DNA of 35,219 nucleotides, from contig JANYIQ010000275.1 in the NCBI GenBank assembly GCA_025362575.1, positions 1 through 35,219 on the forward strand. Direction: 5' to 3'. A program made the position numbers and the translations under genes. The stretch comes from Bacteroidia bacterium (lineage in GTDB: Bacteria; Bacteroidota; Bacteroidia; B-17B0; Aurantibacillaceae). The notes under the pieces are model-generated. The model saw only the letters and a program-made list of their open reading frames with translations. It ran no database searches and was not told where the DNA came from. This document shows positions 10,704-34,359 of the stretch, one piece after another (positions within the stretch are counted from its first letter, which is position 1; every line of letters begins with the position of its first letter).

Positions 10704-10768
10704 CAAAAATAGTGTTGAATAAAAATGAACGGCATGACCATACTCATTTGTTTCTATGACTTTAGTCA
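10704..10768 (-). promoter_or_regulatory. Predicted promoter of the first Usp gene with two CRP/FNR-type sites
   Basis: On the minus strand the -7 element TATTTTTG (10711-10704) matches TAnnTTTG fully and predicts a start at 10699. The palindrome TGACCATACTCA (10735-10746, centre 10740.5) is at -41.5. A second, perfect copy TGACTTTAGTCA (10757-10768, centre 10762.5) is at -63.5. The upper site overlaps the stop codon of the CstB-like gene. Confidence 0.7.
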
Positions 10769-16136: not shown

Positions 16137-16895
16137 TTACCACTTTGCATCGGGATAGGCTCTTTGCAGGTACTGCATTTCTGCGAGTATATGCCCCAAA
16201 TGCTCAGAGTGTACACCATTTATGCTGCCTGTTTGCATGTATGTATCTTTGGGAACGAATAGAGTTGCTTCATTCAGAACCGAATTAATGCAATCTCTCC
16301 ATTTTTTTTGTAATGGAATTGTATCAACTGCAATTCCCTGTGTCAGTAAATCCAGATCAATACCATTCATTTCAAATAGTTCTCCGGTATACATCCACAG
16401 ATCATTGATGGCTGATTGCATTCTGTCATGACTTTCTTTTGTCCCATCTCCAAGGCGAATGGTCCAATCGGAGGCGTGTTGTAAATGATACTTTACTTCT
16501 TTAATGGTTTTGCCGGCTATTGCCGAAAGTGTAGTATCTGCACTTTTTTCCAATTCCTGAAACAAGAAAAATTCAAAGGTTGAAATAAAAAGCTGGCGTG
16601 CGATAACGTGAGCAAAATCTTTGTTCGGCTGCTCTGTTAAAAGCAGATTGTAATAATTTTTTTCTTCTCTTCTGTAAGCCAGATCATCTTCACTGCGGTT
16701 TTTTCCTTCAATCTCTCCTGCATATTTTAAAAGTGCCTGCGCTCTTCCTAAAAGATCGAGCGCAATGTTTGTCAAAGCAAGATCCTCTTCAAGAATCGGA
16801 CCTTTGCTGCACAATTGTGACAGGCGGTGACTTAAGATCAAGGCATTATCGCCAAGTCGAAGTGTATATAAGTAAAGTTCTTCTTTCTTTGTCAT
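16137..16895 (-). CDS. paaC: Phenylacetyl-CoA epoxidase subunit PaaC
   Basis: The 252-residue protein matches PaaC in length and in sequence landmarks: LRLGDNALILSHRLSQLCSKGPILEEDLALTNIALDLLG, here given in parts as LGDNALILSHRLS and LTNIALDLLGRAQ. EEKNYYNLLLTEQPN and HLQHASDWTIRLGDGTKES follow. PaaC is the non-catalytic structural partner of PaaA in the ferritin-like di-iron epoxidase that acts on phenylacetyl-CoA with O2. The end EHLGHILAEMQYLQRAYPDAKW is the usual C-terminus. It follows paaB by 11 bases and closes the paaABC operon. The expected next genes paaD and paaE (iron-sulfur assembly and reductase) do not follow here; a thioredoxin-like gene with its own promoter does. The protein is soluble and cytoplasmic. 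Confidence 0.95.
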   Translation of the reverse strand: MTKKEELYLYTLRLGDNALILSHRLSQLCSKGPILEEDLALTNIALDLLGRAQALLKYAGEIEGKNRSEDDLAYRREEKNYYNLLLTEQPNKDFAHVIARQLFISTFEFFLFQELEKSADTTLSAIAGKTIKEVKYHLQHASDWTIRLGDGTKESHDRMQSAINDLWMYTGELFEMNGIDLDLLTQGIAVDTIPLQKKWRDCINSVLNEATLFVPKDTYMQTGSINGVHSEHLGHILAEMQYLQRAYPDAKW

Positions 16896-16906
16896 AATTC
16901 AAGTTG

Positions 16907-17200
16907 TTAAATATTTTTTGCTCCTTCAGGCATTATATAAAAAGTAGGGTGACGGTAAATTTTATCGTTTGACGGATCGAATAACATATCGTTATCGTCT
17001 GGGTTCGAAGCTTTGATCGCTTTTGAAGGTACCACCCAGATGCTCGTTCCTTCGCCCCTTCGGGTGTAAATGTCACGGGCATTCTGCATCGCCATTTTTA
17101 CATCGGAAGCATGAACACTTCCTGAATGAATATGAGGGAGCCCTGATTTACTTTGAATAAATACTTCCCAAAGGTCTAATTGATTATCTTCTGTTTTCAT
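16907..17200 (-). CDS. paaB: Phenylacetyl-CoA epoxidase subunit PaaB
   Basis: The 97-residue protein shows the PaaB pattern LWEVFIQSKSGLPHIHSGSVHA near the N-terminus (given as LWEVFIQSK and HIHSGSVHA). ARDIYTRRGEGTSIWVVPS, a conserved stretch of the family, comes next, and the protein ends YRHPTFYIMPEGAKNI. PaaB is a small subunit that bridges the PaaAC heterodimers into the larger complex and is needed for activity. The gene lies 8 bases after paaA and 11 bases before paaC. Normal length is 95 to 100 residues, so it is complete. Confidence 0.95.
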   Translation of the reverse strand: MKTEDNQLDLWEVFIQSKSGLPHIHSGSVHASDVKMAMQNARDIYTRRGEGTSIWVVPSKAIKASNPDDNDMLFDPSNDKIYRHPTFYIMPEGAKNI

Positions 17201-17208
17201 AATTTGGA

Positions 17209-18153
17209 TTAAGCGATTACTAATTCTTCTTTTAAATGTTTGATCTTGTAGGCCTCAGCAGCATCACGAACCCAGGCACCTTCATTAAAGTAATTTATGT
17301 GGTGATCCAGGCGCTGTTTGTTGCATGGGCCGTTTCCTTTGATAACGCGATGAAATTCATCCCAGTCAATTTTTCCATGATCGTAATGTCCTTTTGATTC
17401 ATTCCATTTGATATCCTTATCCGGCATCACTAATCCGATCAGTTCAGCCTGCTGTACAGTTTTATCAATGAATTTCTGACGAAGCGTATCATTTGATTCA
17501 CGTTTTATTTTCCATTTAACGGCATCTCCACTATGAGGTGAATCAATATCGTGCGGACCAAACATCATGAGTGCGGGCCACCACCATCGGTTCATAGCGT
17601 CTTGTGCCATGGCCTGCTGGTCTTTTGTGCCTTTCATCATTCGCGCCATAATTTCATAACCCTGACGTTGATGAAAACTCTCTTCCTTGCAAATTCTTAC
17701 CATTGCTCTGCTATACGGACCAAAAGAAGTTCTCTGCAACGAAACCTGATTAACGATGGCAGCACCATCTACTAACCAGCCAATAGCACCAATGTCTGCC
17801 CAGTTAAGAGCAGGATAATTGAAAATATTAGAATACTTCGCTTTACCGGTGTGTAATTGTTCGATCATCTCTGCACGGGATATTCCAAGAGTTTCGGCAG
17901 CGCTGTATAGATACAAGCCATGTCCGCCTTCATCTTGAATTTTCGCCAGAAGAATTTGCTTTGCCCTTAAACTTGGAGCACGTGTTATCCAGTTTCCTTC
18001 AGGCTGCATGCCAATTACTTCAGAATGGGCGTGCTGTGACATCTGGCGGATAAGGTGTTTTCTATATCCATCGGGCATGTAATCTTTAGGTTCTATGTGT
18101 TCTCCATCATCAATGCGTTTTTGAAAATGGGAATCGGTATGTTCGTTGTGCAT
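17209..18153 (-). CDS. paaA: Phenylacetyl-CoA epoxidase catalytic subunit PaaA
   Basis: The 314-residue protein carries the di-iron ligand patterns of PaaA. These include [37 protein letters not shown] (shown in part as [14 protein letters not shown]) and [16 protein letters not shown], whose Glu and ExxH residues hold the two irons. The family usually has about 310 residues. PaaA forms the oxygen-activating subunit that makes the 1,2-epoxide of phenylacetyl-CoA. It is the first gene of paaABC and has its own promoter (18168-18210) with a CRP/FNR-type site at -41.5. The promoter shares a pair of palindromes with the divergent small membrane protein gene at 18269. The leader would be 10 bases. 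Only the ABC subunits are in the window, so a full pathway needs paaE, paaG, paaZ and others elsewhere. Confidence 0.96.
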
Positions 18154-18167
18154 AGGAATATTTTTTA

Positions 18168-18210
18168 TAAATGTATTTAATAGCTAAGCAACCTGAAATG
18201 ACCTTCATCA
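18168..18210 (-). promoter_or_regulatory. Predicted paaA promoter with a CRP/FNR-type site
   Basis: On the minus strand TACATTTA (18175-18168) fits TAnnTTTG in 7 of 8 positions, predicting a start at 18163. TGACCTTCATCA (18199-18210, centre 18204.5) is at -41.5. The other palindrome of the divergent pair (centre 18227.5) is at -64.5. Confidence 0.65.
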
Positions 18211-18221
18211 GAATCCGTTTA

Positions 18222-18264
18222 TGATTTATATCACATTAAATAGGAACTGAGAAGTTTAAATTTG
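18222..18264 (+). promoter_or_regulatory. Predicted promoter of the DUF2892-type gene with a FNR-like site
   Basis: TAAATTTG (18257-18264) matches TAnnTTTG fully and predicts a start at 18269, the first base of the GTG start codon. TGATTTATATCA (18222-18233, centre 18227.5) is close to the FNR consensus TTGAT-N4-ATCAA and sits at -41.5. The paaA site (centre 18204.5) is at -64.5 from this promoter. Confidence 0.7.
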
Positions 18265-18268
18265 TAGG

Positions 18269-18496
18269 GTGAAAGTGAATATAAGTTATGCCAACAGAAT
18301 GACCCGTTTATTAATTGGGGCAGTGATTCTTATTATCACTTCCTGTTCATTCATTCTGGAGGAAGAAGATTATTATTTTATGCTGGTACCGATCGCTTTT
18401 TTATTAACGCTTTCAGCACTTTTCGGTATTTGCCCGATAACTTCTTTTGTTGAAAAAAATAGAAATAACGAGTCGCTAAATGGAAGTGCTGAATAA
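18269..18496 (+). CDS. Small two-helix membrane protein, DUF2892/YgaP-like
   Basis: The 75-residue protein begins at a GTG (MKVNISYANRMTRLLIGAV), placed on the first base of the predicted transcript. Two helices are visible, LIGAVILIITSCSFI (about 15-29) and YFMLVPIAFLLTLSALFG (about 37-54), then CPITSF. The pattern N-R-x-x-R-L-x-x-G with a final G-x-CP fits the DUF2892 domain, also found as the membrane tail of the rhodanese YgaP. Its function is unknown; a link to sulfur or redox chemistry is guessed only from YgaP. The promoter has an FNR-like site at -41.5 and is divergent from paaA. The last 21 bases overlap the end of hemN on the other strand. Confidence 0.8.
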   Translation: MKVNISYANRMTRLLIGAVILIITSCSFILEEEDYYFMLVPIAFLLTLSALFGICPITSFVEKNRNNESLNGSAE

Positions 18497-27358: not shown

Positions 27359-27423
27359 CAAAGGTATTTGGAGAGCTTTATTGCAGGACTGAGTTAAATC
27401 AATCAGAGATATGATTATTGTCA
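27359..27423 (-). promoter_or_regulatory. Predicted cco operon promoter with two CRP/FNR-type sites
   Basis: On the minus strand TACCTTTG (27366-27359) is a perfect -7 element, predicting a start at 27354. TGAGTTAAATCA (27390-27401, centre 27395.5) is at -41.5 and TGATTATTGTCA (27412-27423, centre 27417.5) at -63.5. No -33 element is needed for a class II activated promoter, and none is clear here. Confidence 0.8.
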
Positions 27424-29873: not shown

Positions 29874-29938
29874 CAAAGGTATTTTGTAAGAATGCATGCA
29901 TTACTGATGTATGTCACGCAAAAGAGTGACCTGCATCA
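29874..29938 (-). promoter_or_regulatory. Predicted ccoI promoter with two CRP/FNR-type sites
   Basis: On the minus strand TACCTTTG (29881-29874) is a perfect -7 element, predicting a start near 29869, one base from the ATG. TGATGTATGTCA (29905-29916, centre 29910.5) is at -41.5 and TGACCTGCATCA (29927-29938, centre 29932.5) at -63.5. The same -7 octamer is used at the cco operon. Confidence 0.8.
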
Positions 29939-30465: not shown

Positions 30466-30846
30466 TTACATCCATTTAATTAATGAGTTATTTAATTCTG
30501 TTTTTATGTCTTTGAACATTTTCTCAAAAACTGTGATCTGTTCTCTGGTCTCTGTGTGATCTTTTACCATTCTATGGTCAACGGCCACTTCATTTCCTGA
30601 AATTTCTTTAACTAACGAGTCTTCGCTCATATTGACACCGTGTTTTATGTTATCAATTGTCGTGTTTTGAATCAATAATTGATTTTGAAAATGTTCAACA
30701 CCGGCAAGAACCTCCTTCGATGTATTCTTAGAAGCAACTTCTGCTAAACGATTTTGCATTACTTTGATCTCATCTTTATAGAACAAAAGTTTATTAAGCC
30801 ATTCTTTATTTTCTTCGTGTTGAGTATAGATTTTTTCGGTTTTCAT
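30466..30846 (-). CDS. Helical cytoplasmic protein of unknown function
   Basis: The family has no name known to me. The 126 residues are almost entirely predicted helix, with heptad-like spacing: WLNKLLFYKDEIKVMQNRLAEVASK (about 16-40, in part), VLAGVEHFQNQLLIQNTTIDNI and MVKDHTETREQITVFEKMFKDIKTEL. It contains no Cys and no membrane segment. Several His and Glu residues (H10, H52, H69 region, H91, H96 region) might bind a metal, as in hemerythrin-like bundles, but the hemerythrin motif is not visible. I recall similar uncharacterised proteins in many Bacteroidota. It leads a two-gene operon with a small membrane protein and has tandem CRP/FNR-type sites in its promoter, as do the oxidase genes, so it is likely part of the same low-oxygen response. 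Confidence 0.75.
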   Translation of the reverse strand: MKTEKIYTQHEENKEWLNKLLFYKDEIKVMQNRLAEVASKNTSKEVLAGVEHFQNQLLIQNTTIDNIKHGVNMSEDSLVKEISGNEVAVDHRMVKDHTETREQITVFEKMFKDIKTELNNSLIKWM

Positions 30847-30860
30847 AAATTAATTTTTGA

Positions 30861-30925
30861 TAAAGGTCGGCGAACAAAAAAACTTTGTTTATGACTGCAG
30901 TCATAAAGGCTACTGATGTGCGTCA
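30861..30925 (-). promoter_or_regulatory. Predicted promoter of the 30846 operon with two CRP/FNR-type sites
   Basis: TGACTGCAGTCA (30892-30903, centre 30897.5) and TGATGTGCGTCA (30914-30925, centre 30919.5) are 22 bp apart. At the fixed distance lies GACCTTTA (30868-30861), which fits TAnnTTTG in only 6 of 8 positions. The predicted start is 30856 with a 10-base leader. The weak -7 element suggests strong dependence on the activator. Confidence 0.6.
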
Positions 30926-31015: not shown

Positions 31016-31027
31016 TGATTTTTATCA
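31016..31027. promoter_or_regulatory. FNR-like palindrome upstream of the sensor kinase gene
   Basis: TGATTTTTATCA is a full TGAT-N4-ATCA palindrome, centre 31021.5. A near -7 element, CAGTTTTG (31048-31055, 7 of 8), lies 33.5 bases further down, three bases closer than in the other promoters. Autoregulation of the kinase-regulator pair is possible but the spacing is not the standard one. Confidence 0.4.
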
Positions 31028-31124
31028 TTCTTCCTTATGAGCTAAGTCAGTTTTGAAAAGCTTTTTAAAACGTTATTTTGTTAAAACGCTAAAAGTGAGT
31101 AAATTGCCTGTATATAAAGAGAAA

Positions 31125-32309
31125 ATGGACGGAAAAGAAGGTGTAGATGCCTTATTCAAATTTGCCAGCGAGGGAATAGTAATTACTAATGAGGAAGGAT
31201 TACTGATAAAGGTTAACCCATCAGCTCAAAAAATGTTTGGCTATAGCCATGGAGAGTTGGTCAATCAAAGAGTTGAAATTCTTGTTCCTAATAAACATGC
31301 GCACCGACACGAAGGACATCATGCTGATTACAGAAAAAATCCTCACCCACGAGCTATGGGCGGAAACATGGAATTGTTCGCTAAAAGAAAGGACGGAACT
31401 GAATTTCCTGTTGAAATTAGTTTGAGTCCGTATTCTTCCGAAGGAAAAAAGTACGTTATCGCCTTTATCGTTGATATTACCTTGCGTAAACAGGCTGAAG
31501 ATCGTTTAAAGAATTATTCTCAGGAATTGGAAAAGCAGGTTGAGAACAGAACCTTTATTATGCGTGAAGCAATTGCTGAACTTGAAAAAACAAAGGATGA
31601 GTTAAATAATGCGCTTGGTAAGGAAAAGGAACTGAACGAATTGAAGTCAAGATTTGTATCGATGGCGTCTCACGAGTTCAGAACCCCTTTAACAACGGTG
31701 TTATCATCGCTTTCTCTGGTTGCAAAGTATGGCGAGCAGGGAGATAAAGAAAAGCAAGGAAAACATATTACCAGAATAAAATCATCGATAACACATTTAA
31801 CGGATATATTGAATGACATGTTATCGATAAGCAAGCTTGAAGAAGGCGGAATAACCATGTCGCGCGAGAATTTTGACTTACGTGAGTTCATTAGTGCGCT
31901 TATTCAGGAAATGCAGGGACTTTGTAAATCTGAGCAGATGATCAACTACAAACATTTAAATTCCGACGCCTCAGTGTATCTTGATAAAAAGGTTCTTAGT
32001 CACATTTTATTCAATCTGATCTCAAATGCAATTAAGTTTTCGCCTGAAGGAAAACCAATAGACATTTCATCTGAGATCAATGAACATACTATTTGTCTTA
32101 GTGTAAAAGATTCCGGTATCGGAATTTCTCAGGAAGATCAGAAACATTTATTCGAAAGATTTTTCAGGGGGCAGAACGCGGGAAACATACAAGGTACAGG
32201 TCTTGGACTGAATATTGTAGCGAAGTACGTTGAAATAATGGATGGAGTGATCGAATGCGAGAGCGGACTGGAGAAAGGAACAAGTTTTAAAATTACATTT
32301 TCAAAATAA
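31125..32309 (+). CDS. Soluble PAS-domain histidine kinase, FixL-like in its PAS domain
   Basis: The protein has 394 residues from ATG 31125; a TTG at 31053 would add 24 basic residues. It has no membrane segment. A PAS domain (about 7-125) is followed by a coiled coil and the kinase core: H-box SMASHEFRTPLTT (H183), N-box LFNLISNAIKFSPEG, G1 DSGIGI and G2 GTGLGLNIV. In the PAS domain, HRHEGHH (middle His is H62) aligns with the FixL segment whose His is the haem ligand. The FixL distal Arg, 20 residues on, is Met82 (GGNMELF), and RKDGTEFPVEIS matches the FixL RKDG region. Many PAS proteins share this pattern without known haem, so oxygen sensing is inference. The response regulator gene follows after 12 bases. 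Confidence 0.9.
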   Translation: MDGKEGVDALFKFASEGIVITNEEGLLIKVNPSAQKMFGYSHGELVNQRVEILVPNKHAHRHEGHHADYRKNPHPRAMGGNMELFAKRKDGTEFPVEISLSPYSSEGKKYVIAFIVDITLRKQAEDRLKNYSQELEKQVENRTFIMREAIAELEKTKDELNNALGKEKELNELKSRFVSMASHEFRTPLTTVLSSLSLVAKYGEQGDKEKQGKHITRIKSSITHLTDILNDMLSISKLEEGGITMSRENFDLREFISALIQEMQGLCKSEQMINYKHLNSDASVYLDKKVLSHILFNLISNAIKFSPEGKPIDISSEINEHTICLSVKDSGIGISQEDQKHLFERFFRGQNAGNIQGTGLGLNIVAKYVEIMDGVIECESGLEKGTSFKITFSK

Positions 32310-32321
32310 TAAACAGAATAT

Positions 32322-33380
32322 ATGAAAACGATTTTACTAATAGAAGACAATAGAGAGATGCGCGAGAATACATCTGAAATTCTTGAACTTTCCAATTATA
32401 AAGTATTTACTGCCGAAAACGGCAAGATTGGTGTTGAAAAAGCACAAAAGGAAAAACCGGATCTGATCATTTGTGATATTATGATGCCGGTGCTTGATGG
32501 TTATGGAGTTCTTCATTTGCTTTCGAAGAACAAAGAAACCTCAAACATCCCTTTCATTTTTCTTTCCGCTAAGGCTGAACGAAGTGATTTCCGTAAAGGC
32601 ATGGAAATGGGAGCCGATGATTATGTAACAAAACCATTTGATGACATTGAACTACTGAATGCCATAGAAAGCCGTTTAAAAAAAGCGGAACTCATGAAAA
32701 AGGAATATGATAAAAGTGCCGAAGGTTTTGATAATTTCATTAAAGAGGTAAAAAGCATTGAGCCCTTAAAAAAATTGTCGCAGCAGCATGATACCACATT
32801 AGTAAAGAAAAAGCAGGTTGTTTACAACGAAGGAAATTTACCTAAAGTTGTTTATTTCATTAAAAAAGGGAAGATCAAAACTTTTAAAACAAATGAACTT
32901 GGTAAAGAATTAATAAATGGACTTTATAACGAAGGTGATTTTTTCGGATATCTTTCTTTGCTTGAAGATGGTAAATATTCTGATACTGCCGTAACACTTG
33001 AAGATTGCGAGATCAGCATGATCCCAAAGGAAGATTTCTTCGCATTGGTTTATAAAAGCCCGGAAGTGTCGCGTAAATTCATTAATATTTTATCGAATAA
33101 TATTCTTGAGCGCGAGGAACAGTTAATTAAACTGGCCTATAATTCCGTAAGAAAGCGTGTGGCAGAGGCACTTGTGACCTTATACAATAAATATAAAAAG
33201 GAAGGTGATAAAACCTTCAGTATAAACATCTCGCGTGAAGATCTTGCCAATATTGTTGGAACAGCTACAGAGACCGTAATTCGTACTTTAAGTGATTTTA
33301 AGGACGAAAAGTTAATTGAAATAGCAGGTAGCACCATTTCAATTACCAATTACGACAAGCTGGCAAACATGAAAAACTAA
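32322..33380 (+). CDS. Response regulator with CRP/FNR-type effector and DNA-binding domains
   Basis: The 352-residue protein fuses a receiver to a CRP/FNR-type regulator. Residues 1-120 are the receiver with acidic pocket IEDN, phosphorylation site D52 (CDIMMP) and K104 (TKPF). Residues about 150-262 are a cNMP-binding-type beta-roll (VVYNEGNLPKVVYFIKKG, GDFFGYLSLLEDG) with no Cys for an iron-sulfur cluster as in FNR. Residues 276-347 are a winged helix of the Crp type. Its recognition helix, TATETVIRTLSDF, has E317 and R321 where CRP and FNR use Glu and Arg to read TGA. The protein therefore should bind TGA-N6-TCA, the palindrome found at eight promoters here. It is co-transcribed with the kinase and is probably its partner. 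A ligand for the beta-roll is unknown. Confidence 0.93.
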   Translation: MKTILLIEDNREMRENTSEILELSNYKVFTAENGKIGVEKAQKEKPDLIICDIMMPVLDGYGVLHLLSKNKETSNIPFIFLSAKAERSDFRKGMEMGADDYVTKPFDDIELLNAIESRLKKAELMKKEYDKSAEGFDNFIKEVKSIEPLKKLSQQHDTTLVKKKQVVYNEGNLPKVVYFIKKGKIKTFKTNELGKELINGLYNEGDFFGYLSLLEDGKYSDTAVTLEDCEISMIPKEDFFALVYKSPEVSRKFINILSNNILEREEQLIKLAYNSVRKRVAEALVTLYNKYKKEGDKTFSINISREDLANIVGTATETVIRTLSDFKDEKLIEIAGSTISITNYDKLANMKN

Positions 33381-34294: not shown

Positions 34295-34359
34295 TGAGAA
34301 AAGTCATCTTAATAAATGAGGTCACTCATACAAAAGTGGCCCCAGGATCAATATTTTTG
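34295..34359 (+). promoter_or_regulatory. Predicted promoter of the second Usp gene with two CRP/FNR-type sites
   Basis: TATTTTTG (34352-34359) is a full -7 match, predicting a start at 34364. TGAGGTCACTCA (34317-34328, centre 34322.5) is at -41.5 and TGAGAAAAGTCA (34295-34306, centre 34300.5) at -63.5. The leader to ATG 34466 would be 102 bases, the longest of the set. Confidence 0.75.

Follow-up and report, generated by a model that had tools for sequence, protein, structure and literature searches.

A predicted low-oxygen operator of two Crp/Fnr-type sites in mirror arrangement between divergent paaA and DUF2892 genes of a Bacteroidia bacterium

Introduction

At class II promoters of Escherichia coli, a CRP or FNR dimer occupies a TGA...TCA site whose centre lies at -41.5, ahead of the box recognized by the main sigma factor, and no upstream promoter element is needed. 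More than one dimer may be present at a promoter, as with the tandem FNR or CRP sites of E. coli, where spacings are variable and the upstream dimer lies further off. At bidirectional operators of divergent genes, two outward promoters share a single protein complex. In rhizobia, the anaerobox recognized by FixK/FnrN controls fixNOQP and fixGHIS (PMC7888657). The targets usually carry one anaerobox, and there are distinct proteins for the kinase, the response regulator and FixK. Few rules relating transcription factors to promoters are available in Bacteroidota, the promoters of which are unlike those of E. coli. Transcriptome mapping in Flavobacterium psychrophilum has placed the TAnnTTTG box at -12 to -5 (PMC9723704).

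The region between paaA and a small membrane protein gene of a Bacteroidia bacterium, lying in an analysed stretch of 35,219 nucleotides (the window), has the class II features of a TGA...TCA site at a predicted -41.5, ahead of the main sigma-factor box, and of independence from an upstream element. It differs from the E. coli promoters by the TAnnTTTG box, by a second site that is mostly found at a fixed 22–23 bp in this type of promoter, and by the dispensable outer T of the FNR site. As in rhizobia, Crp/Fnr-type sites precede cbb3-oxidase and assembly genes, and the rhizobial core TTGAT-N4-ATCAA contains TGA-N6-TCA; here, however, receiver and Crp/Fnr parts are found in one protein. Compared with the E. 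coli tandem sites, the dimers would be adjacent, with a nearly invariant spacing at the loci examined. Compared with bidirectional operators in general, the two dimers would trade proximal and distal roles with base-pair symmetry.

Results and Discussion

Two sites between two predicted outward-facing promoters

The features of the region are as follows.

17209–18153, minus strand: paaA (Pfam PF05138, TIGR02156), heading paaABC, with a ring-oxidation set downstream
18168–18175, minus strand, read from 18175 down to 18168: -7 box TACATTTA, 5/6 of TAnnTTTG, predicted start 18163
18199–18210, either strand: operator site 1, TGACCTTCATCA, centre 18204.5, exact TGAN6TCA and fitting TGAY-N4-RTCA, at -41.5 for paaA and -64.5 for the DUF2892 gene
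18222–18233, either strand: operator site 2, TGATTTATATCA, centre 18227.5, exact TGAN6TCA and fitting TGAY-N4-RTCA, at -41.5 for the DUF2892 gene and -64.5 for paaA
18257–18264, plus strand: -7 box TAAATTTG, 6/6 of TAnnTTTG, predicted start 18269
18269–18496, plus strand: gene of a small YgaP-like_TM (DUF2892) membrane protein (PF11127), with a GTG start at 18269 or 18275

Direct reading of the sequence from 18154 to 18280 located both sites where an earlier note had placed them. That note had called them palindromes, which is correct for the half-sites TGA...TCA but not for the inner six bases, where the symmetry is lost. On both strands, the box lies 29.5 bp from the centre of the nearer site. 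The starts at 18269 (plus strand) and 18163 (minus strand) are deduced from the register of the TAnnTTTG box, -12 to -5 (PMC9723704), and these predicted starts place the site centres at -41.5 and -64.5. The distances given in the earlier note for the two promoters thus agree with ours, as predicted positions. The paaA transcript would have a 10-nt leader (gene beginning at 18153). As the GTG is at 18269 or 18275, the DUF2892 transcript would be leaderless or have a 6-nt leader; the GTG at 18269 is favoured, since homologues begin with MKKN or MKDN.

With a site near a predicted -41.5, a TGA-N6-TCA core and no strong upstream promoter element, both promoters have the make-up of class II Crp/Fnr-dependent promoters. 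The TTTG element at -33 is absent from both. A scan for E. coli-type sigma-70 promoters returned nothing above shuffled sequences, and no Rfam family matched the region. The two sites are 23 bp apart, which is the rarer spacing; elsewhere the rule is 22 bp, with the distal site at -63.5.

The paired sites follow a spacing rule in Bacteroidota

The source genome (4.32 Mb) was examined by pattern searches and in chosen stretches. Closely spaced pairs of TGAN6TCA, with a gap of 8–13 bases, occur 16 times, versus once for a reversed-pattern control. Nearly all are spaced by 22 bp, the paaA/DUF2892 pair being the only one at 23, and in most of them the centre of the proximal site is exactly 29.5 bp away from a TAnnTTTG-like box. 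No enrichment was seen for the strict FNR word TTGATNNNNATCAA (8 in the genome, 7 in the control), which indicates that the motif does not include the outer T/A. Seven of the 16 pairs fall in the 35-kb window; besides the pair described above they are the first six listed here, followed by a related arrangement.

10735–10768, minus strand: 22-bp pair, box TATTTTTG at 29.5, universal-stress-protein gene
27390–27423, minus strand: 22-bp pair, box TACCTTTG at 29.5, cbb3 oxidase operon
29905–29938, minus strand: 22-bp pair, box TACCTTTG at 29.5, P-type ATPase gene, predicted start 29869
30892–30925, minus strand: 22-bp pair, weak box GACCTTTA (4/6) at 29.5, gene at 30466–30846
31016–31049, plus strand: 22-bp pair, box TTATTTTG (5/6) at 29.5, kinase/regulator operon, putative autoregulation
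34295–34328, plus strand: 22-bp pair, box TATTTTTG at 29.5, gene near the contig end
15551–15585, minus strand: exact site at -41.5 (box TTACTTTG) with a degenerate distal site (5/6) 23 bp off, HgmA-like dioxygenase gene

One-directional promoters of the window also have two sites, the proximal one at -41.5. For the P-type ATPase (29901) and the PAS kinase (31053), the listed open reading frame starts precede the predicted transcription starts (29869 and 31085), so that translation probably begins at a later codon.

The search was extended to 80 loci (1.42 Mb) found as bearing relatives of the receiver-Crp protein of the window, from Chitinophagales, Cytophagales (Dyadobacter, Runella, Pontibacter, Rufibacter) and others. 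The TGAN6TCA sites are spaced by 22 bp in 95 cases, by 23 bp in 10 and by 24 bp in 4, with about one case at most other distances; 105 of the 110 pairs in these regulator-bearing loci are at 22 or 23 bp. Eleven control words gave no spacing peak in the same loci (0–1 cases). A box matching at least 5/6 lies at an offset of 29.5 in about 106 cases, versus 2–3 for each other offset. In 104 aligned promoters, the inner positions that had not been used in the selection are symmetric, TGAY-N4-RTCA, position 4 avoiding A and position 9 avoiding T in proximal and distal sites alike. The aligned set shows no TTTG at -33. One genome of the same class (G226) has 40 pairs at 22 bp, far above any other genome examined.

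Could such pairs be chance matches of a short degenerate word in AT-rich DNA? TGAN6TCA alone is indeed common, with 30 occurrences in the window. Against this stand the spacing peak, the box-offset peak and the reversed-pattern control. Moreover, 400,000 regions of 115 nt simulated with a first-order Markov model contained 41 pairs, none with both boxes, for a joint expectation of about 2e-8 per region. For the class of paired sites chance is refuted statistically, and for the present pair it is a negligible explanation.

The rule is base-exact: two TGAY-N4-RTCA sites at a spacing of 22 bp are followed, after 23 bp, by TAnnTTTG. It would allow low-oxygen regulons to be read from sequence across the class. 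The rule, which we regard as a variant of class II Crp/Fnr activation, is apparently undescribed, as a literature search of partial coverage found no description of it.

The mirror layout recurs at unrelated gene pairs

Of the roughly 100 pairs with at least one box, 18 are flanked by a box on either side; the expected number is about 1.5. Many of these mirrored pairs have the kinase/regulator operon on one side and a varied divergent gene on the other, encoding a P-type ATPase, a universal stress protein or small proteins of various other types, as judged from the printed N-termini. A second mirrored pair is found in the source genome between phasin-like and CBS-domain genes (C125:2180–2213). 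The mirror layout therefore recurs at many unrelated divergent gene pairs, of which the paaA locus is one instance. Elsewhere in the genome (L020 1727–1780, G000:C136), three tandem sites spaced by 20 and 22 bp lie between divergent genes, with a box on one side at 28.5.

The 23-bp spacing was considered as a possible product of the mirror layout; this was ruled out, since 3 of 11 pairs at 23 bp are mirrored and 15 of 107 at 22 bp (P 0.37). The 23-bp spacing is common in the paaA promoters of relatives (4/6 versus 10/105, P 0.002). In a nearby relative (L028), paaA and a similar small membrane gene are again separated by a mirrored pair. In three other loci (L031, L032, L037) the pair serves paaA only, and both sites are kept without the divergent membrane gene. 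Three sites are found at the paaA promoter of L029, L030 and L033, and L029 and L030 have no shared pair. Upstream of paaA2 in L035 and L036, two TGAN6TCA sites are 16 bp apart, the proximal one being 29.5 bp from a TACATTTG box; this spacing breaks the 22-bp rule. With the three sites of L029/L030 and the 16-bp spacing of L035/L036, the layout is not fixed within the paaA gene family.

The conservation of both sites bears on the simplest reading of the region, two independent class II promoters set back to back, each site serving its proximal promoter only. In its favour, 19 of the 74 promoters that combine a perfect box with an exact site at -41.5 lack a good distal site. However, two sites at a fixed 22 bp are normal at one-directional promoters, and the partnerless paaA promoters of L031, L032 and L037 retain the distal site. 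For the latter reason, the paaA/DUF2892 region is not simply a pair of one-site promoters, and we regard that reading as unlikely. Each promoter probably makes use of the distal dimer as well, since two sites are kept at both one-directional and partnerless paaA promoters. This supports the proposal of the earlier note that every dimer is proximal for one gene and upstream for the other, with activation as the presumed outcome.

A receiver-Crp fusion is the best candidate regulator

The likely binder is a dimer of the Crp/Fnr family. Two genes of the window are relevant.

31053–32309, plus strand: PAS histidine kinase with no recognised membrane domain, the listed start preceding the predicted transcription start at 31085
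32322–33380, plus strand: candidate regulator with a receiver, a cNMP-binding fold and a Crp-type HTH (PF00072, PF00027 and PF13545)

The candidate regulator has the phospho-acceptor Asp, the Lys and the Crp-type HTH of a response regulator with a Crp/Fnr output. Residues D9, D52 and K104 of the receiver are invariant in 39 aligned sequences, across which the recognition-helix motif E-T/S-x-I-R is also conserved, with one E-A variant. The receiver occupies the N-terminus, and the N-terminal cysteine cluster of FNR is absent. The cAMP-binding motif of CRP is Arg-Ser/Thr-Ala; the aligned stretch of the fusion reads YSDTA. The haem sensor FixL has a haem-binding PAS domain with His and Arg residues. 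In the kinase of the window, a PAS domain is present with a His in the likely region, as judged by eye, and the FixL arginines are apparently absent.

Fusions of a receiver to an Fnr-like DNA-binding part are widespread, with a strong match in 118 of 247 Bacteroidia genomes; a literature search of partial coverage found no description of them. Among the 247 genomes, those with a full-length regulator have on average 5.3 pairs at 22 bp, those with a match to the Crp part only 1.9 and those with neither 0.3. A requirement of the receiver domain for pairing was rejected, as six fusion-less genomes that were examined also have pairs with boxes at 29.5. These genomes encode Fnr-like regulators with the same helix, mostly with N-terminal cysteines, and the pairs are sometimes beside the regulator gene. 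The paired-site rule thus belongs to the Crp/Fnr sublineage as a whole, and from its domain content the fusion looks like a member of it in which the iron-sulfur input has been replaced.

The source genome also encodes an Fnr-like paralogue (L024:4782–5564) with an N-terminal cysteine cluster, CQSCASFPKSALGC. The sites may be bound mainly by this protein, sensing oxygen directly, or by both proteins with the fusion in a lesser role. The two recognition helices have the same key residues (TESVIR and TETVIR), and receiver-less relatives with N-terminal cysteines occur in the genomes with 22-bp pairs just mentioned. On the other hand, the concentration of pairs in the fusion-encoding window, including the one upstream of the operon of the fusion itself, and the clearly higher number of pairs in fusion-bearing genomes point to the fusion. 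The gene of the paralogue has a single palindrome near its start and no pair. The paralogue is a serious rival, although we find its leading role rather doubtful. The best candidate remains the fusion at 32322–33380, located beside the PAS kinase and the cbb3-oxidase cluster.

Proposed mechanism

It is probable, on the sequence features above, that the region is a shared low-oxygen (microaerobic) operator, at which two Crp/Fnr dimers serve both paaA and the DUF2892 gene, the fusion being the most likely protein. Against this shared-operator reading, the box on the paaA side matches only 5/6. The adjacent PAS kinase would phosphorylate the fusion, and two dimers would bind next to each other on nearly the same face of the helix, 22–23 bp being about two turns. 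As a class II activator, the dimer at -41.5 would touch RNA polymerase at a promoter with TAnnTTTG and without the -33 element, and that at -64.5 would aid the proximal dimer, probably by cooperative binding. The bound pair would serve both genes, the dimers swapping roles at the opposite promoter because the boxes are placed symmetrically outside the pair. The sequences themselves give the sites and boxes with their distances, their conservation and recurrence, and their joint occurrence with the regulator family; binding, activation, control by phosphorylation, the low-oxygen signal and the use of both starts are all presumed in this scheme.

The distal dimer might instead restrain transcription, for example by occupying the place at which the C-terminal domain of the polymerase alpha subunit would bind, so that the pair would tune or silence one direction. 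Adjacent dimers would leave little space for this domain beside the proximal dimer. The fnrN gene of Rhizobium leguminosarum is repressed through a second anaerobox, but one positioned at -2 (PMC7888657). Yet distal sites have the same inner-base preferences as proximal ones at promoters without a divergent partner, and the rigid in-phase spacing fits cooperation. Restraint by the distal dimer is quite improbable. For the preferred activating pair, the mirrored region offers a clean natural test of interchangeable roles of dimers at -41.5 and -64.5.

At a broader scale, two adjacent Crp/Fnr-type dimers locked at 22–23 bp may constitute a phylum-wide mode of activation, a unit that can face either way. 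In many lineages it would be operated by an Fnr-like protein having a receiver in place of the iron-sulfur input, and the receivers would bridge the dimers. We put this forward tentatively, as less likely than not.

The link to oxygen is suggested by gene context and by analogy with F. psychrophilum, in which oxygen limitation raises the cbb3 oxidase (PMC9723704). The window contains cbb3 oxidase genes (a ccoNO fusion and ccoP), fixG- and fixH-type genes, hemN and a metal-transport ATPase. Co-control of oxygen-requiring aromatic breakdown, through the second paaABC, with a high-affinity oxidase is also suggested. A canonical paaA lies at G000:C247:47973, and the paaA gene at 17209–18153 is a second copy with 67% identity to it. 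The second paaABC copy (16137–18153) adjoins HgmA-like and glyoxalase-family dioxygenases within the cbb3/low-oxygen cluster. In two genomes of the same genus, paaA2 and the receiver-Crp gene also lie within about 12–14 kb of each other.
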